From IMG/VR virus record IMGVR_UViG_2162886007_000016, positions 50,311-114,310 of that record: DNA of 64,000 bases; one strand, written 5' to 3'. A model generated the notes under the pieces. That model saw only the letters and a list, made by a program, of their open reading frames with translations. It did no database searches and was not told where the DNA came from. The stretch is from a virus. This document shows positions 33,101 to 54,000 of the stretch, in pieces. Position numbers and translations under genes: made by a program. The first letter of the stretch is position 1; every line of letters begins with the position of its first letter.

Positions 33101-34692
33101 GCGCGATCATCACCGGTGGCGCTGTGGTTGATTCCTTGAAGACCGAGCAGTATGAGCTGCGCGTCACCTTCGAAGACCAGACCACTGTCGTGATGCCAGC
33201 TACCGAGTGGCTGTCGAGCAACACCAGCACTGCGGGTACCATCGACGCGAACGGCCTGTTCACTGCCAAAGAGAACAAGTCGGGTACCAACATAAACACC
33301 ATCCTGACTGGCAAGTACACGCTGGACGGTGTGACGGTTACCGCGACGAAGACCATCGCTGTGCATGACGTGACGAACTACCCAGCGTCCATCGCGATCA
33401 CCGGCCCGAACTCTGTGGATTCGTCCGCTGCGAACGGTGCAGGCAGCGCGCAGTATCTCGCCAAGGTCACGTACCTCGACGGGACCAGCGCTGACGTAGT
33501 TGGTACCTGGGGTGTTGAAGGCACCACGCCGAGCGATCCAATCGGCAGTATCAACGCATCTGGCGTGTTCACTCCGAACCAGAAGCCTGGTGGCACTACC
33601 CGCAACATCACGGTGAAGGTCGCCTACACCGAGTTCGGTCGCACCGTCAACGGCACGAAGTCTGTGTCGCTCGTCGTTGTGCCAGTACCGTCGTCGCTCG
33701 CTATCAACGGTCCAGCTACCGTGAACAGCGATAGCAGCGGTACCTACTCGGCCAAGGTAACCATGACTGACGGCAGCGTCTCTGACGTACTGGCCACCTG
33801 GTCGACAACTGCCAGCTCCACTGTGGCAACTCTGGCGACTGATGGTACGCTGGCTGTCAAGCACCTGAGCGCTGACACTGCAATCCCGCTGCACGCAACT
33901 TACACCGCAGCTGGTATCACCGTAGCCGCCGATAAGACGGTCACTGGTAAGAAAGCAGTCGAGCTGGCCTCGATCACTGTATCGGGTCCGACTCAGTTGG
34001 CATCGGGCGCCACTGGCAAGTACGTGGTAACTGCGAACTTCACTGACTCCTCGACTCAGGATGTGACCAGCACTGCCACCTACAGCACCAGCGTTGCTTC
34101 GGCCGGTTCGTTCTCGCAGTCGACCAAAGGTGATTTCAACGCGGCCAACGTGTCTTCGGATACTGCGACTGTGCTGACCTTCGACTACACCGCAGCTGGC
34201 GTGAGCAAGCAGGCAACTGCGGACCTGACAGTGAAAGCAGCCGTTGTCTCGGGTAACAATCGTCCACGCTTCGGCGTAGCGATGTTCTCCGACACTGACT
34301 TCACTGGCGGCAAGACTGGCACGAACGAGACGTACAACATCCCGTACACTCGCTGGTCTGGCATTCAGGACTTCGCCGACAAGGTGATGACCAACGTTCT
34401 GCCTCTGGGTACCTCGGGCGAGACGTTCACACTCAACATCGGCGATGCGCAGTACGGCTACTTCATGCACTTGAAGTCGAAAGGTACCGCGACATTCACC
34501 GATCAAGCGATCAACGTACCGGGCGGCTTTGGCGGTATTCAGTGGACGCCAGAGGGCGAAGTTGGCGACAACTACGACCCAATCGAAGTCACCTACGATT
34601 GCCACGATGGCAACGGTCCTCAGCAGTGGCTGGTGTACCGTACGGACTGGGATAGCCTGGGTGCGGTCACCTTCAAGGTTACTTACGCTTGA
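30118..34692 (+). CDS. Giant tail adhesin with 12 Ig-like repeats
   Basis: A 1524-residue protein. Residues 1-210 are paralogous to the preceding protein and contain NDPRMSDARDPLPHTH. From about residue 233 to 1374 there are 12 tandem bacterial Ig-like (BIG2-type) repeats of roughly 85-95 residues, most beginning YPxSAxIxGPxxxxE and containing TFTNGT and SASYT strands. The C-terminal 145 residues are a globular domain (GGFGGIQW, then WLVYRTDWD) that recurs in two other proteins here. Ig repeats on virions act as stalks or weak glycan binders that increase contact with the cell surface. No protease or enzyme motif is seen. Confidence 0.8.
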   Translation: MPTPTLAEFVAQTVALADYRNLARENPIPVQLPLGNGENMIVVVAFMEPNNVTLPFNVSWIVVDPDSASYGKVLRRTSALPSVGFRNTWQELDTFEDLIAEQQYWDFSSGFNLGEVDVPQVGAATLDVRGLVILNREYTPDQDSPVVVGGNDPRMSDARDPLPHTHPKLPITMIRGATGVNSWLAKVGTSNTPKPGEVLTITGPGAKDGEWIGEWRRPVKADLVYDGPTFDELEIVGPEGNTLDETAPFTFKANAKFSDGSVLNNVQGSWAVIGNGAYGSISNQTGIFQSLDIDEDQVLRIEVRWTHPESGQLRVKYVDITIVDKTIKLVLTSIELVGVNELEENSIATYSVIAHFDDGTSAGVTPTTFTSSNPGAGAFNNKTGVLEVGELTTDQTTTIAATYAFNGVTKDANLTVRCIDTTIYPSSAVIVGPAEVDEGTSTNFTLRVTFTNGTQKDVAVTDWRSSDEEAGTINPSSGVFEAPNNLFEDKATTLSASYTLEGRTVNGSRQILVKDTTVYPRSAVILGSAAINENTVTQYQFRVSFSNGTTNVVTVSNWALSNPAMGTINKNTGQLVAATDVQQDTKGKVSASYSAFGQTVTAELEVTIKDITNYPVSARVVGNAQMNENTTQTLTFEVTYLDGTKVNEPVTNWTSTNSGAATIGAANGLVTAAVNLQANGTTTVAASWSKYGRTVTADMLLTVRDITNYPVSAVINGQATINEGSTADYTLAVTFADGTTANRSGNWAITGGNGASVNTSGRVTAPANVDVNTPASLTASYTLDGKTVTASAKTVTIMDTTVYPSSARILGPNSLPENTSQTYQLEVTFTDATKAIVPVTNWKSSVISTATIGANTGVLNGLDTTGNKVTKITASYTAAGKTVGAELDVTVTDSTNYPVSAAVEGPDFLDEGDTGNYVLRVTFTDGTNSLVGVIDWASSKTAVGVINPTTGALATNANLKADDSTKVSASYTASGITVSAEKNVTVRDKTVYPVSAIITGGAVVDSLKTEQYELRVTFEDQTTVVMPATEWLSSNTSTAGTIDANGLFTAKENKSGTNINTILTGKYTLDGVTVTATKTIAVHDVTNYPASIAITGPNSVDSSAANGAGSAQYLAKVTYLDGTSADVVGTWGVEGTTPSDPIGSINASGVFTPNQKPGGTTRNITVKVAYTEFGRTVNGTKSVSLVVVPVPSSLAINGPATVNSDSSGTYSAKVTMTDGSVSDVLATWSTTASSTVATLATDGTLAVKHLSADTAIPLHATYTAAGITVAADKTVTGKKAVELASITVSGPTQLASGATGKYVVTANFTDSSTQDVTSTATYSTSVASAGSFSQSTKGDFNAANVSSDTATVLTFDYTAAGVSKQATADLTVKAAVVSGNNRPRFGVAMFSDTDFTGGKTGTNETYNIPYTRWSGIQDFADKVMTNVLPLGTSGETFTLNIGDAQYGYFMHLKSKGTATFTDQAINVPGGFGGIQWTPEGEVGDNYDPIEVTYDCHDGNGPQQWLVYRTDWDSLGAVTFKVTYA

Positions 34693-34710
34693 TAGGTTAA
34701 CCATCACAGG

Positions 34711-34728
34711 AGGGACCTTCGGGTCCCT
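34711..34728 (+). terminator. UUCG-capped hairpin after the adhesin gene
   Basis: AGGGACC-TTCG-GGTCCCT with a short T/C-rich tail (CTTACTT). It resembles the terminators at 8887 and 18179 but with a weaker T-tract, so termination may be partial. Confidence 0.55.
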
Positions 34729-35682: not shown

Positions 35683-36873
35683 ATGCAGTGGACAGCCGAA
35701 GCTAAGGTAAAAGACCTGGCGACGCTGACTTGGTACACCTTCGAGGGTGACCGATCAGTCAAGCTCGGCGCCGACAAGGAATTCAACCAGAAGCACCCTC
35801 TCGTGGTGCGTCCGGGCGAGCTGGTCGGCATGAAGCAAGCGACTCGTGGCTCAGGCGCAGGTAACTACCAAGTTGTCCTGGGTCACGCACTGCACGTCCT
35901 CTTCCGTAACGTGCCTGAAGCCCAGATCAACAAGATCATCAAGAAGCTGGTGAAGTACAAAGGCAAAACGCCTGAGCACAACCAGCTTCTCGATGGGCAG
36001 AAGCGCGTGAAGAAGGTGACCATCAGTGACAAGGTCAGCTCCGACAAGCAGACTGACGACCTGTTCAAGCCTACGGGTACGATCAGGGAAAACACCATGT
36101 ATGACCGTGCCAACTATCAGTGGCGCAAAGTCATCCATGCTGGTGCCAAAGTCAAGTCGCTGAAACAGGGTCGTAGCAAGTACACGACCCAGGAAGGTGA
36201 TATCATCGGTCTGCGCTACATGACCAAAGCCCGTGGCGGGTTCGTTATCCTGCCGAACGAGCAGCGTGTCAACATCAGCCACGAGACCTACATGGAGCTT
36301 GTATCTGGTGCACGTATTCTGCCAACGAGCAAACAGCAGAAGGGTTTGGTGATTCTCGCCGATCTGAAAGCTGGTCAGCCCAAGCAGACGCGCATTCGCA
36401 AGCCCAAGGAAACTGCGGTTGCTCCACGTGAAGCTATCGCACCGAAGTCGCCAAGTCGAATCAAGCGCGATATCCACGATGACCTTGTCAGCAATCACGA
36501 CATTGACGACGATGAAATCGAGGACGATGAGGACATCCACGAGATTCCTCTGGACGAGCCTGAAGTGCCGAAGGGTCACCAGCCTAGCCAAGTGCTGAAA
36601 GTTGGTGCCATCGTGCAGTCTGCCAAGCGCCCGAGCAACGAGTTCGTTGTAGTCGATGCCACAAAGCACGAAGGCTACACCGAGTTTGCGCTGTACTCGG
36701 TAGCGAAGAAGGATGTGCGCAAGTTGCGCCTCGCAGACGGCGTCGATATGGCGAACTACAAATCTGTATCGGTGAAAGGCGAAGCCACCAAATCGGAGTT
36801 GGCGGCAGGCAAACGGGCCTTCAATGGAGCTGTAAAGAACAAGAAGTTCACCACCGCATCCATTCACGATTAG
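35683..36873 (+). CDS. Unknown basic protein with acidic patch
   Basis: A 396-residue protein not matching a family that I know. It contains several repeated beta-type segments (residues 35-65, 155-185, 300-330), Lys-rich linkers and a strongly acidic patch near residues 270-300 (DDDEIEDDEDIHE). GGAG is correctly spaced before the ATG. It sits between a fibre gene and the DNA ligase gene. Its charge pattern suggests interaction with nucleic acid or with another charged protein, but this is speculative. Confidence 0.5.
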   Translation: MQWTAEAKVKDLATLTWYTFEGDRSVKLGADKEFNQKHPLVVRPGELVGMKQATRGSGAGNYQVVLGHALHVLFRNVPEAQINKIIKKLVKYKGKTPEHNQLLDGQKRVKKVTISDKVSSDKQTDDLFKPTGTIRENTMYDRANYQWRKVIHAGAKVKSLKQGRSKYTTQEGDIIGLRYMTKARGGFVILPNEQRVNISHETYMELVSGARILPTSKQQKGLVILADLKAGQPKQTRIRKPKETAVAPREAIAPKSPSRIKRDIHDDLVSNHDIDDDEIEDDEDIHEIPLDEPEVPKGHQPSQVLKVGAIVQSAKRPSNEFVVVDATKHEGYTEFALYSVAKKDVRKLRLADGVDMANYKSVSVKGEATKSELAAGKRAFNGAVKNKKFTTASIHD

Positions 36874-36882
36874 TGAGTCCTC

Positions 36883-38811
36883 ATGAACCTCGCGCAGATC
36901 AAACGGAATCCAAGAGCAGCAGCCCAGGGTATGACTCTGGGCGAGTTGCGCAAGCTCCTCCAAAAGTTCGACTACGAGTACCACGACCAGAACAAGCCAA
37001 GCGTAGGCGACAAAGTGTACGACACCCTGCGCGATGTTCACGACGAACGCGCCAAGAAGCCGTATGCTCGCGTCGGCTCCAAATCCACTCATGTAGCGCG
37101 CCGCACTAAGCTGGCCGTTGCCATGGGTAGTCTCAGCAAACTCAAGCCCGGCTCGTCCGGGCTTTTGGCGTTCTTGGAAAAAGGCCCATTCGTTGTCAGC
37201 GACAAGGAAGACGGCATCAGCCTGCAGTTGGTGTATGAAAACCATGTGCTGGTGAAGGCAGTACAGCGCGGTGACGGCAAAATCGGCACTGATTCGTCTG
37301 GAGTAATCCCGGCGCTGAAAGTGCCGCATCGCGTCAAGCCGAAAGACCTGATTGTGCGTGTCGAGTTCACCATGAGTGAGCAGACCTTCAATCGGCATTT
37401 CAACAAGGAGAACGGTGGCGAGTACGACAACCCGCGTAACGGCGCTGGTGGCCTGCTCAACCGTAACCAACCGACGACCGCGATCACCAAGGTCAAGTGC
37501 ATTGCGCACGAAATCATGGCTGGTCCAAATGCTCGCGTTGCACCCTCCAAGCAGTTTGCATACCTCAAAGCTCTGGGCTTCGACGTAGTGCCACACAAGG
37601 TCTACCCGAAACTCAACGAGACCATCCTCACGAATCTCCTGAACATCCGTCGCACTCGCGCCAAGCGTGCAATCGACGGCATCGTGGTTGCACAAGACCG
37701 CTCGTACACCGTTGTCGGCAAGTATCCAACGCACTCCTTCGCCTTCAAGATCAACGATCTGGAAGCTGCTGTGGAAGTACCTGTGCTGGACGTCGAGTTC
37801 AACGAGTCGCGCTATGGTCGCTTGGCACCACGCATCCTGATCAAGCCAACTCGCATTGGCGGCGTCATGGTCGAGCACTTCACTGGGCACAACGGGTTCT
37901 ACATCGAGCACGGTTACACGTCGAAGCTCAAAGGCTCCAAGATTCCATACGAGCCACGCCCGATCAACAAAGGCGCGATCATCCGTTGCGTGCGCTCTGG
38001 TGACGTGATCCCGTACATCGTGGAAGTCGTCAAGGCAGCCAAGAAGCCTGCACAACCAAGTGTCGCGTTCGAGTCTGATGGTGTGCATTACTACGCCACA
38101 GAAGGCGGTGACGACCGTAAAGCCAAGTCGCTGCTCAACTTCTTCACGGCCCTTGAAGTGGATGGGTTGAAGCGTGGTACCATCGACATTCTGATCGACA
38201 ATGGCTTCACCACGATCAAGAAGATCATCAACGCCACGGCAGCCGACTTCGAGGAGATTCCTCGTTTCGGTCACTCCAAAGCCGTGACGCTGGAGCGCAA
38301 CATCCGTAACAGTCTTGCCAAGAATGCAACACTCGCCAAGCTCGGCGCAGGCAGTGTGCTCTTCGGTGATAAGTTCGGTGAGTCTCGCCTGAGTGATCTG
38401 TTCAAAGCCCTCCCAGGTATCGTCTATGCGGACTGGAGTGAGAAGCGCATGATCGAGGAGATTCAGCGCGTCAAGGGCTTCAAGGAATTGGCTGTCACCG
38501 CAGCGAAGGTGATGCCCAAATTCCGCCTGTTCCTGAAGAAGCTGGACGTCAAGGTTGTGCAGCCTAAGCAGACCCGTATCACGGGCCACGCAATGCGTAA
38601 CATGGCTGTCCTGTTCACCTCTGTACGCGATAAAGAACTGGCTGAATGGATCGTGGCGAATGGTGGAAAGATGGCATCCAGTGCCAAATCTGCTAATTTA
38701 CTCATTGTGAAAGACGAGTACGTATCCAACAACAAGACGGAATATGCCAAGGACAACGATATCCCAGTCATGTCCGTCGACAAGTTCAGAACCAAGTACA
38801 AGGTGCCCTAA
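36883..38811 (+). CDS. ligA: NAD-dependent DNA ligase (LigA-type) without zinc finger
   Basis: A 642-residue ligase. The Ia-like N terminus (FDYEYHDQNKPSVGDKVYD) for NMN handling is followed by the adenylation motif KEDG with K108, RGDG, PRNGAGG, and an OB-fold/GDVIPYIVEVV segment. A helix-hairpin-helix region (FEEIPRFGHSKA) and a C-terminal BRCT domain (GGKMASSAKSANLLIVKDE) complete the order. Where other LigA enzymes have four zinc-binding cysteines after the OB-fold, this protein has none (FESDGVHYYATEGGDDRKAK). It seals nicks using NAD+. It lies in the structural region rather than in the replication operon. Confidence 0.85.
   Translation: MNLAQIKRNPRAAAQGMTLGELRKLLQKFDYEYHDQNKPSVGDKVYDTLRDVHDERAKKPYARVGSKSTHVARRTKLAVAMGSLSKLKPGSSGLLAFLEKGPFVVSDKEDGISLQLVYENHVLVKAVQRGDGKIGTDSSGVIPALKVPHRVKPKDLIVRVEFTMSEQTFNRHFNKENGGEYDNPRNGAGGLLNRNQPTTAITKVKCIAHEIMAGPNARVAPSKQFAYLKALGFDVVPHKVYPKLNETILTNLLNIRRTRAKRAIDGIVVAQDRSYTVVGKYPTHSFAFKINDLEAAVEVPVLDVEFNESRYGRLAPRILIKPTRIGGVMVEHFTGHNGFYIEHGYTSKLKGSKIPYEPRPINKGAIIRCVRSGDVIPYIVEVVKAAKKPAQPSVAFESDGVHYYATEGGDDRKAKSLLNFFTALEVDGLKRGTIDILIDNGFTTIKKIINATAADFEEIPRFGHSKAVTLERNIRNSLAKNATLAKLGAGSVLFGDKFGESRLSDLFKALPGIVYADWSEKRMIEEIQRVKGFKELAVTAAKVMPKFRLFLKKLDVKVVQPKQTRITGHAMRNMAVLFTSVRDKELAEWIVANGGKMASSAKSANLLIVKDEYVSNNKTEYAKDNDIPVMSVDKFRTKYKVP
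38691..38700 (+). promoter_or_regulatory. Possible internal promoter motif TGCTAATTTA
   Basis: The same ten bases found upstream of the tail sheath gene occur inside the 3' end of the ligase gene, 111 bases before the first of the four tagged basic proteins. They encode SANL using AAT and TTA in a gene otherwise rich in G/C-ending codons. It could drive the 38811-41993 group; it could also be chance. Confidence 0.3.
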
Positions 38812-39230
38812 TGGCCAAGATTCTCATTGGTGCTGACGATAGCTTCAAGGCCGTTGCGTCCGACGACGATCCGGACTGGAAGACGATTCAGAAGCACCCG
38901 TATTACAAACACGCGACGGAGATTCTCCACTCGGAGGGTCTTCGTCCTAAGGGTGTGCGTGGCTACCCGCGACTCATGGAGTTGCTGAACGGTTACGACA
39001 ACACGCACGACAAGAAGGCTTTGGTCACCACCGACTCGAAAGCCGTCCAGCACTTGAAGCGCGACCTGGCCAGTGGCTTGGAGAAGCTCAAGGTTGCTCG
39101 CGCCCGCCTCGCCAAAATGCCTGACAGTGCCGATGAAGCAGCACACGACGACGCAGCTCGCGAAGTCCGCAACGCTCAGCAGTACGTCGATGGTATCCGC
39201 AAAGGCCTCTCCCGCCTTAAGAAAATCTAA
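38811..39230 (+). CDS. Tagged basic protein 1 (DDSF N-terminal motif)
   Basis: A 139-residue protein with N terminus MAKILIGADDSFKAVA, the first of four consecutive proteins sharing this leader. The rest is helical and basic with a coiled-coil-like C-terminal half (residues 80-139). Here the residue after SF is Lys instead of Glu, so if the leader is cleaved after SFE in the others, this one may be retained or cleaved differently. The start overlaps the ligase stop (TAATG). See the finding on the shared tag. Confidence 0.65.
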   Translation: MAKILIGADDSFKAVASDDDPDWKTIQKHPYYKHATEILHSEGLRPKGVRGYPRLMELLNGYDNTHDKKALVTTDSKAVQHLKRDLASGLEKLKVARARLAKMPDSADEAAHDDAAREVRNAQQYVDGIRKGLSRLKKI

Positions 39231-39240
39231 GGAGTTATTC

Positions 39241-40338
39241 ATGGCACTTCTCACCATTCGCGCCGACGGCTCCTTCGAGGCCCTCGCGATGCAAGATACC
39301 TACGCGTCCAAGATCAAGGCGTTCAAGGCCCTCATCAAGTCTACCCAGACTGGCATCAAAGAGCGCAAAAAGAAAGTCGAGCCGTTGAAGCGTATTGCTG
39401 CGCTCAAGCTGCGCCTGCAGCACGTACCACCAAGCCAGAAAGAATCCATCCGCAGCAAGATCAGCGCTGAGCGTCAGAAGCACTCCCTGTCCACCAAGGA
39501 CACCGTGCTGGGTATGCAGCGTCAGATCACCCGTCTCGAAGGTCAGATCACCAAGCACGAAGACCGTATCGCTCGACTGACTCAACAGGAAGCTGATGCC
39601 AAAGAGCGTGCCAAGGTACGCAAGGCCAAAGAAGCCTTGACACCCAAGCAGCCAAAAGTAAACATCGGCGGTCCCGGCATCGGTGGTGCTGGTGCGAAGA
39701 TTCCACGCACTCCGAAAGATCCTGCTGCCAAGTTCGCGCAGCAGGCCAAGACCGCATCTGGCAAGTTGAAGCACACCATCAAGGTGACTCTCGACAAACA
39801 CGAAGCTCAGGCACTCAAGCCTGCGCCGAAGCCAGCAGTCAAGCCGACCGCGTCGACCGTGAAGCCTACCAAGGTGCTCACTCACAAAGACGACAAGAAC
39901 GCTACCGCGATCAAGAACACCCTGACCAAAATCTACGCGCTCAAGAAAGAGCTGGCGAACGCCACTCCGACCAAGAAGCCACACATGCAAGCCGATCTGG
40001 CGAAGCTGCGCGGTGCGCTGCGTGAATTGCGTAAGGGTGCGACTGCCGAAGGTAAGCCGAAGCTGCCAGCCGAAGTCAACGGTCGCCGCGTCAAGCAAGT
40101 GAAGCCTGTCAAGCCGGTTGCTGTTCCTACTCCGAAGACCAAGAGCATGGGTACCATGCCAGCAGCGCGTGCCAAGCTGGAGCGGATGCTGGAGAAAGCC
40201 AAGGCTGAGGCCAAAGACCTGCGCAAGCGCGTCACCGCAGCCAAAGGTCAGGGTCCGCTGTACGGTAAGCTGAGCATTCAACTGCAAAGCCTGAACGCCA
40301 AGATCGTTCGCCTCGAAGGCAAGATCAAGCAGAAGTAA
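39241..40338 (+). CDS. Tagged basic protein 2 (DGSFE N-terminal motif)
   Basis: A 365-residue, Lys/Ala-rich protein starting MALLTIRADGSFEALA. Two coiled-coil-like regions (residues 20-130 and 290-365) flank a Pro/Lys-rich, probably disordered middle (PKPAVKPTASTVKPTK). The isoelectric point is clearly high. The pattern (short shared leader ending in SFE, then a basic helical body) fits internal head proteins that travel with DNA. AAGGAG is 7 bases before ATG 39241. A weak hairpin follows the gene. Confidence 0.65.
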   Translation: MALLTIRADGSFEALAMQDTYASKIKAFKALIKSTQTGIKERKKKVEPLKRIAALKLRLQHVPPSQKESIRSKISAERQKHSLSTKDTVLGMQRQITRLEGQITKHEDRIARLTQQEADAKERAKVRKAKEALTPKQPKVNIGGPGIGGAGAKIPRTPKDPAAKFAQQAKTASGKLKHTIKVTLDKHEAQALKPAPKPAVKPTASTVKPTKVLTHKDDKNATAIKNTLTKIYALKKELANATPTKKPHMQADLAKLRGALRELRKGATAEGKPKLPAEVNGRRVKQVKPVKPVAVPTPKTKSMGTMPAARAKLERMLEKAKAEAKDLRKRVTAAKGQGPLYGKLSIQLQSLNAKIVRLEGKIKQK

Positions 40339-40347
40339 GACCCAGAT

Positions 40348-40370
40348 AGCGGCTCGCAATGGGCCGCTTT
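40348..40370 (+). terminator. Weak hairpin between tagged proteins 2 and 3
   Basis: AGCGGC pairs with GCCGCT across a 9-base loop and is followed by TTTCC. The stem is short and the T-tract minimal, so it may attenuate rather than stop transcription. Confidence 0.4.
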
Positions 40371-40395
40371 CCATAAGACCAAGGAATAGCACAGC

Positions 40396-41121
40396 ATGGG
40401 CAAGATCATCATTTTCTCGGACGACTCCTTCGAGGCTGTCGCCGCACGTGCACCGAGTTCCATCGGTGAGCACAAGCAGCACGTCACCAATCTCACCAAA
40501 GACTTGAAGATCGCCAAGGATATCAAGAAGCAACGCACTGCCGAAGAAAAGGCACGCAGTCTGCTGGCAAAGCTCAAGCATGCTCCAAAGGTTGCAGGTA
40601 ACATCGCCAAGCGCGACAAGGCAAAACAAGACGTAGCGAATGCCAAAGAGCAAGTGCGTGCGCTCAAAGGCAAACTGTCGAATCAGCGCCACACTGATCC
40701 TGACGAAGTCGCTCAGAAACTGGCACACGCCAAAGAAGCAGCGAAAGCATTTGGTGCCACGGTGCGTACCGCATCAAAAGAACACGCTGCCGGTCGCCAG
40801 GCTCTGCGCAAAGATGTTCTCAAGGATAAAGAAGGCTCCATCAAGACCTTGCAGAAACACATCCGTGCGATGGAGAAAGCGAATCAGGACGGCAAAGGCA
40901 ACGAGGATGATCTGCTCACTCGTATCAGCCGGGCCAAGCGCGACATTCGTGACCTCGAAGCCGGTAAGGCTCCTGCCCTGATTTACAGCGCCCACCTGTT
41001 TGAGAAGAAGAAAGCGACCAAAGCCGCGGGCAAGAAAAAGCCCGGCGTTACCAGCAGCCTGAAGTCCAGCCTCAAGCGCAAAGACGCCATGCGCCGTGCT
41101 CGCGTCGGCTATAATAGCTGA
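40396..41121 (+). CDS. Tagged basic protein 3 (DDSFE N-terminal motif)
   Basis: A 241-residue protein starting MGKIIIFSDDSFEAVAA, then a Lys/Ala/Arg-rich body that is almost wholly helical (residues 20-190), ending in a basic tail (SSLKSSLKRKDAMRRARVG). The first 13 residues are identical to those of the next protein. It is predicted to bind DNA non-specifically by charge. AAGGAA precedes the ATG. Confidence 0.65.
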   Translation: MGKIIIFSDDSFEAVAARAPSSIGEHKQHVTNLTKDLKIAKDIKKQRTAEEKARSLLAKLKHAPKVAGNIAKRDKAKQDVANAKEQVRALKGKLSNQRHTDPDEVAQKLAHAKEAAKAFGATVRTASKEHAAGRQALRKDVLKDKEGSIKTLQKHIRAMEKANQDGKGNEDDLLTRISRAKRDIRDLEAGKAPALIYSAHLFEKKKATKAAGKKKPGVTSSLKSSLKRKDAMRRARVGYNS

Positions 41122-41138
41122 CTCACAAGGAACCAATC

Positions 41139-41993
41139 ATGGGTAAGATCATCATTTTCTCGGACGATTCGTTCGAGTCGGTTTCGGCAGCGAAGCCTAC
41201 GGACCTAAAAGGTCACCAAGAGCGCGTCAAGGAACTCAAACGTGACGTGTCCATTGCGACCAAAATCGCAGGCAAGCAAAGAGCGCTCAAGAAGCAGCAC
41301 GATGCGTGGTTGGTTGTTCGCCAATCCACTGCACATCCGAAGAAGGCCGAGAAGCTCGCTGCACTCAGCACCAAGGTCAAAGCGCTGCGTGCAGATATCA
41401 AGGAGCTTAAGGCGGGCTTGTCCTCTTCTCGCCACGCTGATTTGGACAAGGCACACGCGGCTCTGACCAAAGCCCAGCAGGCGAAAGCTGACCACTCCAA
41501 AAAGCATCTGCCGCGCAATCAGAAGACTCAACGTGCCGGTGATTCGACCAAGGTTAAGCGCAGCGAGACCAAGCACGCCACACCGTCTGTGACCAAAGCT
41601 GCTGGCATCAAGCTCGCGGGTCTGCCTGCAGGCACCAAGCGCAACGTGCAAGCGCTCGCCAAGATGAAAGACCATCACGAAATGGTTGCTGCCGTCGCCG
41701 CAGGCAAGGTAAGTCCAAACGGCATGGGCAACTCGTCTTCCGTACGCGCTGCTGGTCGTATGATCGCGCAGCACCTGTCACCGGCTGAGCTTGCCAAGGT
41801 CCACAAGATCAGCAAGCAACACGAGGCGTCTCTGAGCAAGATTCGCAACGAGGCGGGTTCGCCAGTTCGTGAAGGTAAGCTGAACCAAAAGACCTTGGCC
41901 AAGCTGAATGACTCGGGTCTGTTCAAAACCAAACTCGAAGAGCCGCACAAGGCGATCAACCTGATCAACGGCATTACCGCAGCCAAGCCTTAA
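41139..41993 (+). CDS. Tagged basic protein 4 (DDSFE N-terminal motif)
   Basis: A 284-residue protein starting MGKIIIFSDDSFESVSA, sharing its first 13 residues with the preceding protein while the bodies differ. Residues 25-125 are basic and coiled-coil-like; residues 140-284 look more globular, with small helices and Gly/Ser loops. Sharing of only the leader indicates a functional tag rather than simple duplication. The ATG follows AAGGAACC. Confidence 0.65.
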   Translation: MGKIIIFSDDSFESVSAAKPTDLKGHQERVKELKRDVSIATKIAGKQRALKKQHDAWLVVRQSTAHPKKAEKLAALSTKVKALRADIKELKAGLSSSRHADLDKAHAALTKAQQAKADHSKKHLPRNQKTQRAGDSTKVKRSETKHATPSVTKAAGIKLAGLPAGTKRNVQALAKMKDHHEMVAAVAAGKVSPNGMGNSSSVRAAGRMIAQHLSPAELAKVHKISKQHEASLSKIRNEAGSPVREGKLNQKTLAKLNDSGLFKTKLEEPHKAINLINGITAAKP

Positions 41994-42038: not shown

Positions 42039-43316
42039 ATGAAACTCGCCGTATACGCAATTGCAAAGAACGAAGCCAAGCACGTCGCTCGCTGGTTTGA
42101 AGGCGTCAAGGACGCTGACGAAATCGTCGTGCTGGACACTGGCTCGACAGATGGTACCCAGCAGGCGCTCAAGTCGCTGGGTGTCAAAGTCAGCTCCATG
42201 GCATTTGAACCCTTCCGATTCGACACGGCGCGTAACTCCGCCATGAACCTCGTCAGCATGGATGTGGACTACTGCATGTTCATTGACCTTGACGAGGTCA
42301 TGGAGCCGGGAAGCATTACCAAGATCAAGGAACTGATCTCCAACCGTTCGCACCATATGTACGCGGTGCGTCTGGTCTTCCAATACGATGAAGCGCGCAA
42401 GCCCATCGTCTCCTATCTGCGCGAAGCAATCCACACGCGCCACGGCTTCTACTGGAAGTATCCCGTGCATGAGCTCCTCGCGTGCTACGAGAATTACACG
42501 TACAAGGAACTTCCGATCGACGTATTCCACGAGCCAGACAACGACAAGCCACGTTCGTCCTACCTTGAACTCCTGCAAAAGGGTGTCGAGGAGAATCCAG
42601 ACGACGCACGCATGGTCCAGTATCTCGGCCGTGAGTTCATGTACCAGGGTCAATATTTCGACGCGATCATGTGGCTCAAGAAGCACATCGAAATCGAAAC
42701 CCATGGTCCGTTCCGTTCTGAGTCTGCGCTGTACATCGCCCAGTGCTACTTCGCCATGGATGGTCAACTGGAAGAAGCGCTCAACGAATGCGAAGCGTGG
42801 CACTATCGCGCAATCGCCGAGTTCCCAAGCGCCCGTGAGCCCTTCTGCGCGCTCGCCTTCTTGTACTTCCAGTGTGGCCAATACGAGCCTTGCATTGGCA
42901 TGCTCCGTAACGCCCTGCGCGTCGAGACTCAGCCTCAGGTGAGCATGATCCATCGGGATGAATACTACCAGCACTGGCCGTATCACCTGCTCGCCGTCTG
43001 CTACTTCTCTCTTGGCCAGATGACCCGAGCCAAAGAAAACATTCAACACGCAATGAAGCTGGCGCCCAAGATCGACGGCCGCCTGGCGAACGATATTGCC
43101 ACAATCATGGGATTCCAAAATGCTCCTCGTCAGCCTATCGCTAGCAGCGCCGCAGAAGCGCCTGAACAAGGACGACTTCCTGAGACTGGGGACGTCGGGC
43201 CAGAAGAAGTATCTGGAGAAGTATCCCAAGAGCAAGCACAGGTTCCTGCTCAAGGGCAAGACGATAAAGAAGGGGCACACCGAGCCAGTCAAGCAGCGTC
43301 GCCTGACGCGGACTGA
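42039..43316 (+). CDS. Family 2 glycosyltransferase with TPR-like repeats
   Basis: A 425-residue protein. Residues 1-100 are a GT-A fold: AVYAIAKNEAKHVARW, IVVLDTGSTDGT and the metal-binding DLDE in CMFIDLDEVMEP. From about residue 185 to 355 there are TPR-like helical pairs (YLGREFMYQGQYFDA, AQCYFAMDGQLEEA, FLYFQCGQYEPC). Such enzymes transfer a sugar from a nucleotide-sugar to a protein, glycan or modified DNA base. The acceptor is unknown; the phage may decorate its own virion or host surface. The last 65 residues, read in the 197-base overlap with the next gene, are low-complexity Glu/Gln/Pro and probably not a folded part. CCGGAG precedes the ATG. Confidence 0.8.
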   Translation: MKLAVYAIAKNEAKHVARWFEGVKDADEIVVLDTGSTDGTQQALKSLGVKVSSMAFEPFRFDTARNSAMNLVSMDVDYCMFIDLDEVMEPGSITKIKELISNRSHHMYAVRLVFQYDEARKPIVSYLREAIHTRHGFYWKYPVHELLACYENYTYKELPIDVFHEPDNDKPRSSYLELLQKGVEENPDDARMVQYLGREFMYQGQYFDAIMWLKKHIEIETHGPFRSESALYIAQCYFAMDGQLEEALNECEAWHYRAIAEFPSAREPFCALAFLYFQCGQYEPCIGMLRNALRVETQPQVSMIHRDEYYQHWPYHLLAVCYFSLGQMTRAKENIQHAMKLAPKIDGRLANDIATIMGFQNAPRQPIASSAAEAPEQGRLPETGDVGPEEVSGEVSQEQAQVPAQGQDDKEGAHRASQAASPDAD

Positions 43317-44574
43317 GTACGACGGCCTCAGCGATAAGGCGAAAGCCAAGTACGATGAACGCTACCCAAAGAGCCGTCACAAGCCTCGCTTCAAAGGCGG
43401 CAAGGGTCGCGTGCAGGATACCAAGATCAGCACCAAAGAGTCTCGCAAGGATCGCACCAAGCGCTCCAAGGAGAACATGGCAGAGGTCGATAAGCAGCGC
43501 AAGATTCTCACCGATGACGGCGCTGGCGTTATCAATCGCGAGTCCGTGAAGGCTCTGGAGAACATCAAGCCAGAGCACTTGAAGCGCGGTGCCAACAACA
43601 TCGACGAGAACCGCGACGAGATTCACGACGTGGTCGATGCCAAGGCGAAAGACAAGCCACACCTGTTCGATCGTGGCCTGGGTGCTGTGCGTGACTTGAT
43701 GCAAGGTGACGCGGCATCCACGCATGACGATGACAACCGCAGCGAAGGCGATAAGGAGACTGACCCTGATCGCCAAGCAGTAGACGCTGACGGCCAGCCA
43801 GAGTTCGACGCTGACGGCAAACCCATCACCGAAGGTGACAAGGCCAACGACCCTGAACTCAGCGACGACGCTGATGAGGAAGAAGAGGACGAGGAGGAAG
43901 ACAAGAAGTCCAAGAAGAAAAAGAAGAAGGGCAAGAAGGATAAGAAAGGCGGCAAGGGTCACAAGGACAAGAAGAAACAGCGCGATGGTAAAGCCGTGCT
44001 GGGCTTCGTTGTCAAAGCTGCCATCTTGGGTGCTGGTGTCACGATGCTTGCACTCGGCGCTGGCCCACTGGGGATGATCGTTGCACGCGGCCTGCTCGAT
44101 ACCTGGGAAGACTTTAAAGGCATCGCATCGACCGCGGCTGATGGTAACATGACTCCTGAAGAGCAGAACTACCAGACAGTCAACGAAATCATCACGCAAA
44201 CCCAGAGCTACCTACGCAACATGGATATGGACGACCTGCACGCCCAATCGAAGGAGATGTTCAGCGCCATCGCATCTTCTCACGTGGACGTTTACGGCAC
44301 AGTGTTCAACGCAGCACTGCCGATTGTCGGTGAACGCCCGAAAGGTATTCCCGGCAAGAGCTTCTACGGACACAGTAGCGTGGACCTGAAGACACTCGCA
44401 ACTACCTTCGAGAAGGCATTGAGTTCCCAAGGTATCTTGCGTGAGCGAGACCACGTAACTGACCCAGGTGAAGAGACCTACCTCTTCTACACCTCGGGTC
44501 CTAATCGCACGATTGTTGCGGTTGGAATGAACGAAGACCACGGTCTCTACCACGTATCTTTCCTCAACTGGTGA
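43120..44574 (+). CDS. Charged protein with one hydrophobic segment and YPKSKH repeats
   Basis: A 484-residue protein starting at ATG 43120 inside the glycosyltransferase gene. Residues 20-85 contain two related repeats ending in YLEKYPKSKHRF and YDERYPKSRHKP. A mid region of alternating acidic (EEEEDEEED) and Lys-rich (KKKKKKGKKDKKGGKG) stretches precedes a single hydrophobic segment of about 35 residues (near residues 300-335, FVVKAAILGAGVTMLALGAG). The C-terminal 140 residues are globular. It could be membrane-associated or an ejected internal virion protein whose hydrophobic segment inserts into the cell membrane. Both are inference. Confidence 0.6.
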   Translation: MLLVSLSLAAPQKRLNKDDFLRLGTSGQKKYLEKYPKSKHRFLLKGKTIKKGHTEPVKQRRLTRTEYDGLSDKAKAKYDERYPKSRHKPRFKGGKGRVQDTKISTKESRKDRTKRSKENMAEVDKQRKILTDDGAGVINRESVKALENIKPEHLKRGANNIDENRDEIHDVVDAKAKDKPHLFDRGLGAVRDLMQGDAASTHDDDNRSEGDKETDPDRQAVDADGQPEFDADGKPITEGDKANDPELSDDADEEEEDEEEDKKSKKKKKKGKKDKKGGKGHKDKKKQRDGKAVLGFVVKAAILGAGVTMLALGAGPLGMIVARGLLDTWEDFKGIASTAADGNMTPEEQNYQTVNEIITQTQSYLRNMDMDDLHAQSKEMFSAIASSHVDVYGTVFNAALPIVGERPKGIPGKSFYGHSSVDLKTLATTFEKALSSQGILRERDHVTDPGEETYLFYTSGPNRTIVAVGMNEDHGLYHVSFLNW

Positions 44575-44627: not shown

Positions 44628-44975
44628 ATGGAGCGAATCCGTTACCGCTGCGATAAAGCGGAAATGCGTAAGCCGATCGCGCTGCGCAAGACGTGGCACG
44701 TTCTCCTGGGTGACAAGCAGATCGCAACGATCAGCACTCGGGAAGAACCGTCAACCGATCATAGTCACTCGCTGCGCATCTGGACTGCTAAGGTGCACGG
44801 CGGGGAGTTTGATCCGTTCGACTTCCCGCATGTGGACGAAGATGATGAAGGTGAGAGACTGCGCCCTCACGTCACACTCGCAGGCGGACAGCCGTTTCTC
44901 ATTAACCCACAACCCATGACCATGAAAGAAGCGCGGTCGTGGGTTAAGCACGTAGTCCAAAGGGGCGACCGATGA
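44628..44975 (+). CDS. Unknown small protein
   Basis: A 115-residue protein with an acidic, His-containing middle (FDPFDFPHVDEDDE) and no recognised motif. ACGGAGG is well spaced before the ATG. The stop overlaps the start of the prohead-protease-like gene by ATGA, so the two are coupled. Confidence 0.55.
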   Translation: MERIRYRCDKAEMRKPIALRKTWHVLLGDKQIATISTREEPSTDHSHSLRIWTAKVHGGEFDPFDFPHVDEDDEGERLRPHVTLAGGQPFLINPQPMTMKEARSWVKHVVQRGDR

Positions 44976-45712
44976 CACACATGGTAAGTACCAGCTTCTC
45001 GCTGGGTTTGGCGCCTACGGAAATGCACCGTGTTGCTCAGACCAAGCAAGGCCTTGAGCTGGACGCGCAACAAGCTGGCGGTGACGCTCGCGTTCTAGAC
45101 GCCAACATCTGGCTGAAACAGGCCGCACCGCACTATCGCATCAGTGAGGATATCCGCGACTACATCATCGTGGCGCTGCCCTCCATCGTTACCTCGGTGC
45201 CCAACACCAACGGTGACAGTGCGTCGTTCAAGGAGCTGACCGCGTTCAACCCTGAGTTCGGCCAGATGGCGTATCGTACCTGGGTGGGCAAGCCCACTCA
45301 CGTCGAGCACGACAACAAGGATATCACCAAAGCCAAGGGCGTGATCTTCGACACGTACCTGCGCCCACTGCCGCGCAACCGGAAGTTTGCGAAGCTGGTG
45401 AAACTCATGGGCTTCGACCGCACCAAGGACTCGTACCTGGTGAACAAGCTCCTGAGTGGTGAAATCAACACCTACTCCATGGGCATGTACTACTCGTCCT
45501 ACACCTGCCCAGTCTGTGGCGCACGTGTCGGCAAGGGTATCGGTGCACCATGCGTACATACCCGTCCACGTCGTCCGACCTACCAGCTGCCTGATGGGCG
45601 TCTGGCTTATCGCATGTGCGAAGGCCTGGTGGGCTTTGAAACGTCCGTAGTTCTCGACCCTGCGTATGTAGCTGCGCAGTCCGACGTGATCTGGGACTTG
45701 TCGAAACTCTGA
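44972..45712 (+). CDS. Prohead-protease-like protein (tentative)
   Basis: A 246-residue protein. VEHDNKD (H113), then KGVIFDTYLRP, and later LLSGEINTYSMGMY (S169) follow the order of the catalytic His and Ser motifs in HK97-type and herpesvirus-like capsid maturation proteases (H-D...G-V...a helix ending in G-I/S-x-x-S-x-G). After the Ser it adds a Cys-rich element, CPVCGARVGKG plus later Cys/His, perhaps a zinc site. If correct it would cleave scaffold and tagged proteins during head maturation, which fits the neighbouring SFE-tagged proteins. No third catalytic residue can be assigned. Start is fixed by ATGA. Confidence 0.45.
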   Translation: MTHMVSTSFSLGLAPTEMHRVAQTKQGLELDAQQAGGDARVLDANIWLKQAAPHYRISEDIRDYIIVALPSIVTSVPNTNGDSASFKELTAFNPEFGQMAYRTWVGKPTHVEHDNKDITKAKGVIFDTYLRPLPRNRKFAKLVKLMGFDRTKDSYLVNKLLSGEINTYSMGMYYSSYTCPVCGARVGKGIGAPCVHTRPRRPTYQLPDGRLAYRMCEGLVGFETSVVLDPAYVAAQSDVIWDLSKL

Positions 45713-45749
45713 GGCGACCATGAAACTGACTATCTCACTGAGGCGTGCA

Positions 45750-46139
45750 ATGAAAGTTTTCCTCGGCGGTACCTGTAACGATAGCACATGGCGCGAGCGT
45801 TTGATTCCGATGTTGAACATCGACTTCTTCAACCCTGTGGTCCCCAACTGGACTCCAGAGTGCATGGAGGAGGAACGCCGCCAGCGTGAAATCTGCGACT
45901 ACAACCTGTACGTTATCACTCCAAAGATGACGGGCGTGTTCAGTATCGCAGAAGTCGTGTGCGACAGCATCAAACGCTCCTCCAAGACCGTGTTCTGCGC
46001 CTTGCGCTCGGATGACGGTGCTGAGTTCTCCGAAGCTCAGTGGAAATCGCTGCAACAGGTGCGTCGAATGATCGACGAGCATTGTGCCAAAACGTGCGAT
46101 AGTCTGGAAGACGTGGCCGCATTCCTGAACGGAGTGTAA
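45750..46139 (+). CDS. Nucleoside 2-deoxyribosyltransferase-like protein
   Basis: A 129-residue protein starting MKVFLGGTCNDSTWRERL, with FNPVVPNW, a Glu-rich helix and DYNLYVITPKMTGVFSIAE, the arrangement of the nucleoside 2-deoxyribosyltransferase-like family (Rossmann-like, catalytic Glu in the SIAE helix). Members exchange or hydrolyse N-glycosidic bonds in nucleosides or NAD-like molecules. The start at 45750 matches the usual family N terminus and has GAGG upstream; the in-frame ATG at 45720 adds ten residues and also has GAGG. It may salvage nucleosides or destroy a nucleotide signal; the neighbours do not decide. Confidence 0.65.
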   Translation: MKVFLGGTCNDSTWRERLIPMLNIDFFNPVVPNWTPECMEEERRQREICDYNLYVITPKMTGVFSIAEVVCDSIKRSSKTVFCALRSDDGAEFSEAQWKSLQQVRRMIDEHCAKTCDSLEDVAAFLNGV

Positions 46140-46140
46140 C

Positions 46141-46545
46141 GTGAATCGTCTCGTAGACCAGACAACCTTCTACGTACCGGGAACCATCGGTGGTGGGAAC
46201 TGTGCCGAAGCTGCGTGCGCTACGCTCTTTGGCATCCCGCTCTCCGACGTCCCGCGTTTCTACAACGAAGATGACCCAGAGCCGTCGTATCGCTACTGGC
46301 GTAACTTCGAGAACTTCTGCTTCTCGCAGGGTTATTGGGTGGTGCGTCAAGAACGCGAACGAATCATGGAAGCCACGTATCTGGCTAGTGGTTCGTCGGC
46401 TCGCGGATGCAAGCACATGGTGGTGATGCGGAATGGTGAGTTGTTTCACGACCCGCATCCGTCACGCGCCGGCTTGGAGAAGATCGAGCAAACTTGGCTG
46501 CTGGTGCCCCTTGACCCGATCAACTTCAAAAAGGTCACGGAATGA
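46141..46545 (+). CDS. Papain-like cysteine hydrolase (tentative)
   Basis: A 134-residue protein with GTG start, 1 base after the previous stop. GGGNCAEAACATLFG (C21) followed by GCKHMVV (H92) and ELFHDPHPSRAGL matches small papain-like or C39-like proteins with a GNC-AA...H...DPHPS pattern. Cys21 at the start of a helix and His92 would form the catalytic pair; an Asp in the HDPHPS loop may be the third. The target could be a peptide or isopeptide bond. The stop overlaps the next start (ATGA). Confidence 0.55.
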   Translation: MNRLVDQTTFYVPGTIGGGNCAEAACATLFGIPLSDVPRFYNEDDPEPSYRYWRNFENFCFSQGYWVVRQERERIMEATYLASGSSARGCKHMVVMRNGELFHDPHPSRAGLEKIEQTWLLVPLDPINFKKVTE

Positions 46546-47099
46546 AAATCACCATGAGCATGAAAGCCCACGATGACAATGTGGCAGAGGCTGCCAACAA
46601 GCTGATCTTCGTACCCTACACCGGCACCAATGGGCTGTACTCTGCCGTTGATGTTGTACCAGAGTACGTGGACGCCATCCTGAAACTGGCAGACGAACTG
46701 GAGCTGAGCCCAGACGAACATGCGCTACATTGTACCGTCGTCTACTCCAAAGTGGCTGCTACTGTGCCGCTGCCAGAAGTGCTGGACGTTGTGCAGGCCT
46801 ACAAGGACAACCAGTTCTCGGCGCTGGTCAATGCTGTCGAGTCGTGGGTTGGCCACAACGGCAAGACGTACATCGTCCTGAAGCTGGTGAGTGAGTCCGT
46901 TATCTCGCTCAATGCACGCTGCCAGCAACTGGGTGCCGAGCACACGTTCATCCCGTACAGCCCGCACATTACCCTGAGCGACGAAGTGCCTGTGGACGAC
47001 GCCATGAAGGCACGGATCGAATTCGTCAACAAGCGCCTGGCGCGTAACCCTGTCCAGATCATGCTGAAAAATTTCAGCGTTGGTGATCAGGACGACTGA
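46542..47099 (+). CDS. 2H phosphoesterase, Acb1/LigT-like
   Basis: A 185-residue protein with the two H-x-T motifs that define the 2H phosphoesterase superfamily: LHCTVVY (H63, T65) and PHITLS (H142, T144), 79 residues apart. GLYSAVDVV and a helix before the first motif resemble T4 Acb1, which hydrolyses cyclic oligonucleotide messengers of CBASS defence. LigT-like RNA 2'-5' phosphodiesterases have the same motifs, so the substrate is not certain. It lies in a cluster of small enzyme-like genes and is coupled by ATGA to the preceding gene. Confidence 0.65.
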   Translation: MKITMSMKAHDDNVAEAANKLIFVPYTGTNGLYSAVDVVPEYVDAILKLADELELSPDEHALHCTVVYSKVAATVPLPEVLDVVQAYKDNQFSALVNAVESWVGHNGKTYIVLKLVSESVISLNARCQQLGAEHTFIPYSPHITLSDEVPVDDAMKARIEFVNKRLARNPVQIMLKNFSVGDQDD

Positions 47100-52536: not shown

Positions 52537-54000
52537 ATGGCTCAACTAGCAATCAGTAAGGTCGTCGTTGACGAACAGGATATCTACAACGAGCTGGCGC
52601 GGCGTCTCGCAGAAAAGGGCACTTGGAAAGACCTGCTGCCCACGAACGTTTCGGCCACGCTGCTCACTCTTGCCTCTGGCGCAACCACAGTCAACCAGCA
52701 CTACATCAACGTGTCCCTGCGTGAGGCCTTCCTCTCGACAGCGGTGCGTGACTCCTCCATCTTCGAAGGTGCTCGCTCTCTCGGTGTGAAGATTGCGCGC
52801 AAGGTCTCGGCTGGCTTGACTTGCTACCTGCAGAACAACCTGCAGTCGGTGAAGTTCATCCCAGCGTATAGCGAGTTCATGAACTCCTCGGAGAAGTATT
52901 TCAACCGTGAGCAATTGATGATCGCTCCTGGCACTGCCATCGAGGACATCCAGCTCTATCAGGGTGAAGTGAAGACCGTAGAGTTTGACGTGGACACGCT
53001 TGACCCAGCAGCCCTCCAGACGTTCGTGCTCTCCACTCCGAACTTCGTAGTCGCCGACATGGATATGCTTGTCTGGACAGAAGACAAGGTCTCTGGTGAA
53101 GCCACTGTCTGGAACTCGACTGACCAAGCGCTGTACGAACTGGGTCCGACTGACAAGGCGTACTACGAGTTCACCACTGGCTCGGGTGACGTTGCGTTCA
53201 TGTTTGGCACTGGCGACTACGGCTCCAAGCTGTCAGCGGGTACTCTGCTCAAGATTCGCTTCGTGGTCACGAAAGGCTCTACGGCCATCGGGATCAGTGG
53301 TGACAGAATCCGCATGACTTCCCAACCCGAGATTTCGGGTTTTACCACTTCCAACGTGGCTGGCGGTGGTGATCAGAAGTCTGCGCTGTACTACAAGCTG
53401 TTCGCGCCTGTGATGTTCCGCTCCAATCGTAAGGCGATCAGCCCAAGCGAAGTGCGCGCCCACATAATGGCTTACCCTGGTGTTGCCGACTGCTCACTGT
53501 TCTTCCAGCGTGACGTTGCACCCAATGATCCCAAGTGGCAGAACGTGTTGCGTGTGTGCATTCTCCCAGACAGCACTGATACCTGGGGTGGCGCCAACCC
53601 GAACCCGAAGTCTGCCGCATGGACTGCCTTCGAGCAGTGGTTGCTCAATCGCTGCCAAGCACTCGCCCAGATGCAGAGCTGGAACCCAGTGAAGATGTAC
53701 GTTGGCGTCAAGGTGTTGCTCGCAGTCAACAAGGATGTGGACATTGATGAAATGCGCATCCTCGTGACCGAGCGTATCCTGAAGCTCTTCCAGCGTAAGC
53801 CCGGTATCTTGGGTCGCCGCCTCTCCAAGTCTGACATTGAAAACGCCTGCCGTCTGCAAGGTGTGGACTACATTGAAATCCTCTCGCCTTCTGAGGAAAT
53901 CATTCCGCCTGATCGCACCATGTATTGCGTGCTCGATGGCAGCCCAGTAGTCAACATCGTGTACACCGAACGTACCGCAGGTATCTCTGGAGCCAACTGA
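52537..54000 (+). CDS. Baseplate wedge protein, gp6/J-like
   Basis: A 487-residue protein. The N-terminal half (TVNQHYINVSLREAFL, SLGVKIARKVSA), a central beta-domain, and the C-terminal segment with a PGVADCSLFF strand and a DIDEMRILVTERILKLF helix follow the J/gp6 family arrangement. It forms the core dimer of each baseplate wedge and contacts gp25 and gp53/gpI-like proteins. TAGGAAC precedes the ATG, and the stop overlaps the next start (TGATG). Confidence 0.75.
   Translation: MAQLAISKVVVDEQDIYNELARRLAEKGTWKDLLPTNVSATLLTLASGATTVNQHYINVSLREAFLSTAVRDSSIFEGARSLGVKIARKVSAGLTCYLQNNLQSVKFIPAYSEFMNSSEKYFNREQLMIAPGTAIEDIQLYQGEVKTVEFDVDTLDPAALQTFVLSTPNFVVADMDMLVWTEDKVSGEATVWNSTDQALYELGPTDKAYYEFTTGSGDVAFMFGTGDYGSKLSAGTLLKIRFVVTKGSTAIGISGDRIRMTSQPEISGFTTSNVAGGGDQKSALYYKLFAPVMFRSNRKAISPSEVRAHIMAYPGVADCSLFFQRDVAPNDPKWQNVLRVCILPDSTDTWGGANPNPKSAAWTAFEQWLLNRCQALAQMQSWNPVKMYVGVKVLLAVNKDVDIDEMRILVTERILKLFQRKPGILGRRLSKSDIENACRLQGVDYIEILSPSEEIIPPDRTMYCVLDGSPVVNIVYTERTAGISGAN

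Follow-up and report, generated by a model that had tools for sequence, protein, structure and literature searches.

A shared N-terminal tag on unrelated head-block proteins of PaBG-related jumbo phages is a candidate head-targeting propeptide

The subject of this study is a peptide tag at the start of four adjacent genes in 64,000 nucleotides of viral DNA, bases 50311-114310 of the 114 kb IMG/VR record IMGVR_UViG_2162886007_000016 (hereafter the window). By sequence the window virus is a relative of Pseudomonas phage PaBG (a jumbo myovirus of 258 kb), to whose DNA ligase its own is 79% identical. We find that the tag is real, that it sits on otherwise unrelated proteins, that it is selected as a peptide, that it is concentrated in head gene blocks and comes in clade-specific versions, that one PaBG virion protein carries it, and that its end matches motifs at inferred processing junctions of the major capsid protein (MCP) and the portal. 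The shared N-terminus is probably a head-targeting propeptide that acts like the capsid-targeting sequence (CTS) of phage T4 and is cut at the tag end by the head maturation protease.

The four genes follow one another in the window (↓ marks the proposed cut):

38811-39230, plus strand: tagged protein 1, 139 residues, isoelectric point (pI) 9.4; tag codons 38811-38849, MAKILIGADDSFK↓AVA
39241-40338, plus strand: tagged protein 2, 365 residues, pI 10.7; tag codons 39241-39279, MALLTIRADGSFE↓ALA
40396-41121, plus strand: tagged protein 3, 241 residues, pI 10.3; tag codons 40396-40434, MGKIIIFSDDSFE↓AVA
41139-41993, plus strand: tagged protein 4, 284 residues, pI 10.4; tag codons 41139-41177, MGKIIIFSDDSFE↓SVS

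Their N-termini, MAKILIGADDSFKAVA, MALLTIRADGSFEALA, MGKIIIFSDDSFEAVA and MGKIIIFSDDSFESVS in gene order, end in D-(D/G)-S-F-(E/K) followed by (A/S)-x-(A/S). An earlier note on this DNA had quoted exactly these sequences and called all four proteins basic, which their whole-protein pI of 9.4-10.7 bears out. Its statement that the bodies differ beyond the tag stands in part: outside the tag there is no detectable relationship among the bodies of genes 1, 2 and 3/4, but genes 3 and 4 form a paralogous pair (39% over 118 residues, E=1.6e-11). Tagged protein 1 is the ortholog of PaBG gp267 (MAAIKINLAE↓AAN) and tagged protein 2 that of PaBG gp266 (MALIHINADGSFE↓AVA). No convincing PHROGs or Pfam family was found for any of the four; among annotated phages, gene 3 has no relative that we could find and gene 2 only PaBG. 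The note had also proposed a motif search near gene starts. In six frames, the strict start D-[DGN]-S-[FYWLMI]-[EK] picked out, across the 114 kb record and its 228 kb relative G002, only these four genes and one DDGSIE open reading frame (ORF) shared by the two; from PaBG it picked out gp266 and one internal in-frame start. A scan of IMG/VR for ATG plus DDSFEA-type DNA recovered the PaBG group and five small contigs, whose matches (VTDDTFEAMAARAGKR...) are one unrelated conserved protein and were discarded.

At the DNA level, the last two starts are nearly identical over the tag, as the note had observed: 36 of the first 40 bases agree between genes 3 and 4, and similarity falls thereafter. 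The two tags have also switched jointly, from FS (TTCTCG) in G000 and G001 to RA (CGCGCG) in G002 and four further contigs, while the bodies remained diverged; we read this pattern as concerted evolution confined to the tag. Both the near-identity and the joint change, which suggests gene conversion, would suit an element that acts as DNA or RNA at the start of the gene, such as a translation enhancer or recombination tract, rather than a peptide signal. That explanation is hardly credible: G007 (where the peptide is MKIKISLS), L080 and L063 encode the same tag peptide with different codons, and selection therefore acts on the peptide; the motif at the tag end also lies internally in the MCP, the portal and the acidic protein gp82. 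Common descent alone, in which the four genes would be duplicates with N-termini conserved by chance, fits the clear paralogy of genes 3 and 4. It is nonetheless very improbable, being contradicted by the unrelated bodies of genes 1, 2 and 3/4, by enzymes of different folds that share the tag, and by the gene 1 of locus L062, where about 70 residues lie between the tag and the conserved body.

Tag-type starts recur well beyond the window. In PaBG, gp083 begins MLIKINLLEAVAA (tag MLIKINLLE↓AVAA), gp266 and gp267 carry the starts given above (gp266 continuing ↓AVAA), gp258 begins MQIKVAMYSAE↓AAN, and an unannotated ORF (NC_022096.1 55970-56206, minus strand, in locus L019) begins MRIKINLNE↓ALAG (tag MRIKINLNEALA). 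This ORF, of 78-80 residues, is conserved in G002 (34471-34713) and was apparently dropped from the RefSeq annotation, where YP_008433415 is missing. G002 has five further tagged or tag-like genes directly ahead of its gp82-MCP genes, with starts MKITFSLKYE↓ALAMS, MHISLSAVQKE↓AVTS, MNQIKWKAE↓ATS, MTIQWKAE↓AAAV and MKITFPIE↓AVANS. For a family survey, the protease profile yielded 77 loci from public viral contigs (in our labels, G007 includes L141, G002 includes L025 and PaBG NC_022096.1 includes L019); genes in these GC-rich genomes were called with a codon-scored caller, and start codons in metagenomic contigs are predicted. Tag versions proved clade-specific: MxxIRIxxDGTFE↓ATA in L063, MxxIxIxxDGS(F/V)ESL in L062, and MKIxISLSA in L071 and G007.

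Across 39 representative loci, leader patterns were present in 84 of 762 genes, where internal positions would lead one to expect 5.8. N-termini in general may be biased, so comparison within each genome is the better control. Tag-like starts occurred in 14 of 45 head-block genes of G007 versus 1 of 316 elsewhere (p=4e-13), in 9/24 versus 4/272 in G002 (p=1.8e-8), in 6/24 versus 8/339 in G008 (p=9e-5), and in 4/21 versus 4/309 in PaBG (p=7e-4), where all p-values assume independent genes and the patterns were partly post hoc. The tag is common to unrelated proteins family-wide and largely confined to head blocks; with its presence on gp083 and the motif at its end (both below), this lends strong independent support to the head-delivery role that the earlier note had proposed.

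Clade versions of the tag sit not only on basic proteins but also on otherwise unrelated head-block enzymes: DNA ligase, topoisomerase IB and Acb1, which acts against the cyclic-oligonucleotide-based antiphage signaling system (CBASS). The note's picture of the cargo as DNA-associated basic proteins is thus right for some of it and too narrow for the rest, Acb1 being tagged as well and, in relatives, ligase and topoisomerase IB. Two of these enzymes are encoded in the window:

36883-38811, plus strand: NAD-dependent DNA ligase, directly preceding the four tagged genes, without a tag in the window
46542-47099, plus strand: Acb1-like (anti-CBASS) 2H phosphoesterase, probable tag MKITMSMKAHDDNVAE↓AAN (46542-46589)

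The ligase is tagged in G007 (MAKIMISLSSSGK) and in L064, L066, L071, L072 and L119, and is without the tag in other relatives as in the window. G007 has two tagged topoisomerase IB proteins (L141:12426-14105 and L141:18615-19577; PF01028, 2.5e-14 and 2.3e-25), and G002 has a tagged topoisomerase IB of 561 residues (L025:12782-14467), whose leader is also found on the 561-residue topoisomerase IB of phage NCTB. The topoisomerase IB-like family phrog_23460 is listed as of unknown function. G007 also encodes a NUDIX protein with a looser tag-like start, MTKKIKIMVSQSK, and an Acb1-type anti-CBASS enzyme (PF23474, 1.3e-19) whose domain begins at residue 13, immediately after the tag.

The window's Acb1-like protein belongs to the Acb1 anti-CBASS family. 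It matches the Pfam Acb1 profile from residue 30 (1.6e-16, 60.8 bits against a curated cut-off of 27), has the paired H-x-T motifs (HCT and HIT) in the alignment, and matches the Acb1 chains 9q2g and 7t26 in the PDB. Its gene adjoins that of the head protease, and the PaBG annotation reads only RNA ligase (LigT-like). Ahead of the domain is a 29-residue extension that starts MKITMSMK and passes through AE↓AANK. Starts of Acb1-like proteins differ by clade (MKITMSMK..AE↓AAN, MQIKVAMYSAE↓AAN or MKIQISLSA), and the tag is longer in some relatives than in others, with AANKL and the domain staying aligned. To judge from the alignments, this length variation and the roughly 70-residue insertion in the L062 gene 1 are marks of a detachable module.

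Gene order and virion content both bear on where the tag leads. The block is collinear between the window and PaBG (ligase, tagged genes, glycosyltransferase, gp262, small protein, head maturation protease), and in Lu11, HRDY3, Erwinia Y3, Dickeya JA11 and Yersinia fHe-Yen9-02 the equivalent block continues directly into a gp82-like acidic protein, a virion structural protein and the MCP. The window's tagged genes therefore belong to a head-assembly module. PaBG gp083 is band 9 of the virion gel, identified by mass spectrometry (Evseev et al. 2020, PMC7412058 Table 1). The masses printed there for gp80, gp81 and gp83 are consistently about 0.06% under the average masses, as expected of monoisotopic values, which confirms the gene assignment of gp083. 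The tag might instead sort proteins to another destination, such as a phage nucleus, a replication compartment or the DNA-packaging machinery, and its presence on ligase and topoisomerase IB, DNA enzymes that are also active in replication, would suit such a role. The position of tagged genes in head blocks and the presence of gp083 in virions speak against this, and we regard it as distinctly improbable. Import into a phage nucleus in particular was set aside: a search of PaBG, HRDY3, G002, G007 and G008 for relatives of the phiKZ nuclear shell protein turned up none and recovered phiKZ itself as control.

The tag end looks like the processing site of this family. In PaBG, EA[VTMLI]A[ASGNT] occurs 12 times in 4388 residues of head-block proteins and 5 times in the remaining 75507, an approximately 40-fold enrichment (p=3.5e-12, an optimistic value for the genome from which the motif was drawn); shuffled PaBG head proteins hold a mean of 0.37 sites and a maximum of 4. 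Because the motif had been chosen after seeing PaBG, we took G008 as a hold-out, and there the counts were 10 in 7941 residues versus 5 in 79335 (p=7.6e-8). G002, a genome only partly independent, was also enriched (p=4.7e-9). In all three genomes the motif lies at the end of the MCP delta domain (SAREE↓A(V/M/T)AA, residues 74-76) and in the portal arm (FE↓ATAG, FE↓ATAN or ME↓ATAG, residues 42-45). Both sites are conserved spots within otherwise divergent sequence, and several more lie in the acidic gp82. A cut after residue 75 of the PaBG MCP is predicted to take away 20.0% of its mass; the protein is reported to become about 20% smaller on maturation, and several PaBG virion proteins are processed (PMC7412058). 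The site is better written E↓A-x-A than as the S-x-E suggested in the earlier note, which proved too narrow for relatives with LLE↓A, LNE↓A, KAE↓A, GFE↓A and REE↓A. In the homologous MCP chain 6wkk, residue 13 corresponds to PaBG residue 87 and the first residue to about PaBG 75; that chain, which may or may not be a mature product, is not used as evidence.

A candidate for tag removal is encoded 3 kb downstream of the tagged genes:

44972-45712, plus strand: predicted head maturation protease (phrog_18299, 6e-104)

H113 and S169 of this protein are invariant in 36 sequences. A search of a viral library with its AlphaFold2 model (predicted local distance difference test score, pLDDT, 87.5) recovered prohead proteases predicted for other phages, the best named match at 1.9e-9; a fold search against the PDB matched no solved structure. 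Profile, conserved His and Ser, and predicted fold together place it in the prohead protease family. Residues 179-196 contain an invariant C-x2-C ... C-x-H, a zinc-finger-like insertion.

Several observations weigh against cleavage of the tag in the head, or narrow it. No cleavage was observed at any tag, and PaBG gp266 and gp267, the orthologs of genes 2 and 1, are missing from the 14 virion bands visible with Coomassie (PMC7412058). In the window virus and six close relatives, gene 1 has K in place of E at the proposed cut; this SFK is kept among close relatives only, more distant orthologs having E, and such a variant may be left uncut or be cut differently. Nor is E↓A what tag and MCP junction have in common in other clades (Lu11, G007), where the shared pattern is [A/S]-x-[A/S]-S. 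The MCP junction in other clades is xATASS or SAMASS and the tags end IALAAS or ISLSS, which hints, by sequence comparison, that tag end and MCP junction co-vary between clades. Finally, motif and search patterns were derived from PaBG and window proteins, which makes the p-values for these optimistic; G008 is the cleaner case and G002 only partly independent. The main text of the PaBG paper identifies no cut sites, tags or protease (PMC7412058), and the literature yielded no usable cleavage data for Lu11, HRDY3 or RSL1 virions.

Some of these points would suit a tag that targets the head and stays on, as a permanent docking strand in which E↓A-x-A is merely part of the docking signal. Cleavage not having been directly seen, the SFK of gene 1 and the Glu-less tags of several clades (MKIxISLSA) all favor it. 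Yet the MCP delta junction, the portal arm and gp82 contain the motif too, though none of them is an N-terminal tag, and the PaBG MCP does lose about 20% of its mass, so we consider a permanent strand unlikely.

A cleaved head-targeting propeptide has precedents. The internal proteins IPI-IPIII of T4 are diverse anti-defense proteins that have only the CTS in common (PMC3012670). The feature expected of a T4-like CTS, a short conserved N-terminus on otherwise unrelated proteins, was found here, and in T4 that peptide packages its carriers into the prohead core. The present tag differs in sequence, in its apparently beta-strand-like leader, in its clade-specific versions, which change in concert within a genome, and in a cargo that includes DNA ligase, topoisomerase IB and Acb1. 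By analogy it would work like the T4 CTS, and it should not be filed as one by homology. The phiKZ/SPN3US type shares the setting of jumbo myovirus head proteins. The phiKZ rule given in the earlier note is S-x-E; the Ser or Ala at P3 of the phiKZ/SPN3US rule is missing at sites of PaBG (LLE↓A, LNE↓A, GFE↓A, REE↓A) and G008 (KME↓A), where P3 and P2 vary and E↓A-x-A is constant. In the part of PMC10052503 available to us, SPN3US needs A-x-E, and two of its proteins lose short N-terminal propeptides, 20 and 24 residues long, by a cut after Glu, a precedent in a giant phage for this kind of processing; that part does not describe a tag common to many unrelated proteins. Closest to home is the virion proteolysis of PaBG itself, in the same phage family, with its MCP shortened by about 20% (PMC7412058).

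We propose that a short beta-strand-like leader (M-x-x-I-x-I) would dock unrelated cargo proteins, the four window proteins among them, onto the prohead core. A plausible docking partner is the gp82 family, acidic and scaffold-like, whose gene neighbors that of the capsid protein. The head maturation protease would then cut at the tag end, E↓A-[VTMLI]-A-[ASGNT] in the PaBG clade, and the cargo would remain in the DNA-filled head and be injected into the next cell. Members of the gp82 family (PaBG 52918-54849; the window ortholog is not on this contig) have 610-690 residues, are very acidic (net charge about -60 to -138) and lie beside the MCP. They are annotated 'ATPase' and carry repeated E↓A-[TVL]-A motifs; by sequence, gp82 resembles a scaffold or core protein more than an ATPase.

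Other window genes have starts that resemble the tag to varying degrees:

2237-3205, plus strand: histone-H1-like AK-rich protein, ortholog of PaBG gp191
35683-36873, plus strand: PaBG gp269-like protein, starts MQWTAE↓AKV, a possible short leader variant
43120-44574, plus strand: PaBG gp262-like protein, starts MLLVSLSLAAPQ, an S/A-type leader variant
45720-46139: nucleoside 2-deoxyribosyltransferase-like protein (PF15891, 4.5e-10; domain from residue 11)

The gp269-like proteins start MLMIAE↓AKV in PaBG and MLWYAE↓AKV in L063. The deoxyribosyltransferase-like protein has a 10-residue extension, MKLTISLRRA, which resembles MKITMSMK, the start of the Acb1-like gene nearby. About 20-30 residues from its start, the histone-H1-like protein has a conserved V-x-[VM]-D-x-S-P-E↓A-K-A, a weak tag-like match, and D-x-S-P-E-A-K-A-K is conserved near its N-terminus; PaBG gp191 is a virion protein, present in several gel bands.

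To a broader idea we give roughly even weight: that one genome-specific N-terminal zip code loads an injected toolkit of DNA-condensing proteins, DNA ligase, topoisomerase IB and Acb1. Such a code would drift across genes together with the docking core and the protease specificity, and cargo would change by gaining or losing a tag of 10-20 residues. As with the T4 CTS, a short, swappable packaging tag could be put to practical use. It would make injected virion proteins predictable from sequence in a jumbo-phage family that is large and poorly characterized and whose head proteins are mostly 'hypothetical'. The finding points to anti-CBASS and DNA-repair or topology enzymes being loaded into the head beforehand; if this is true, Acb1 would arrive with the DNA, ahead of host CBASS signaling.

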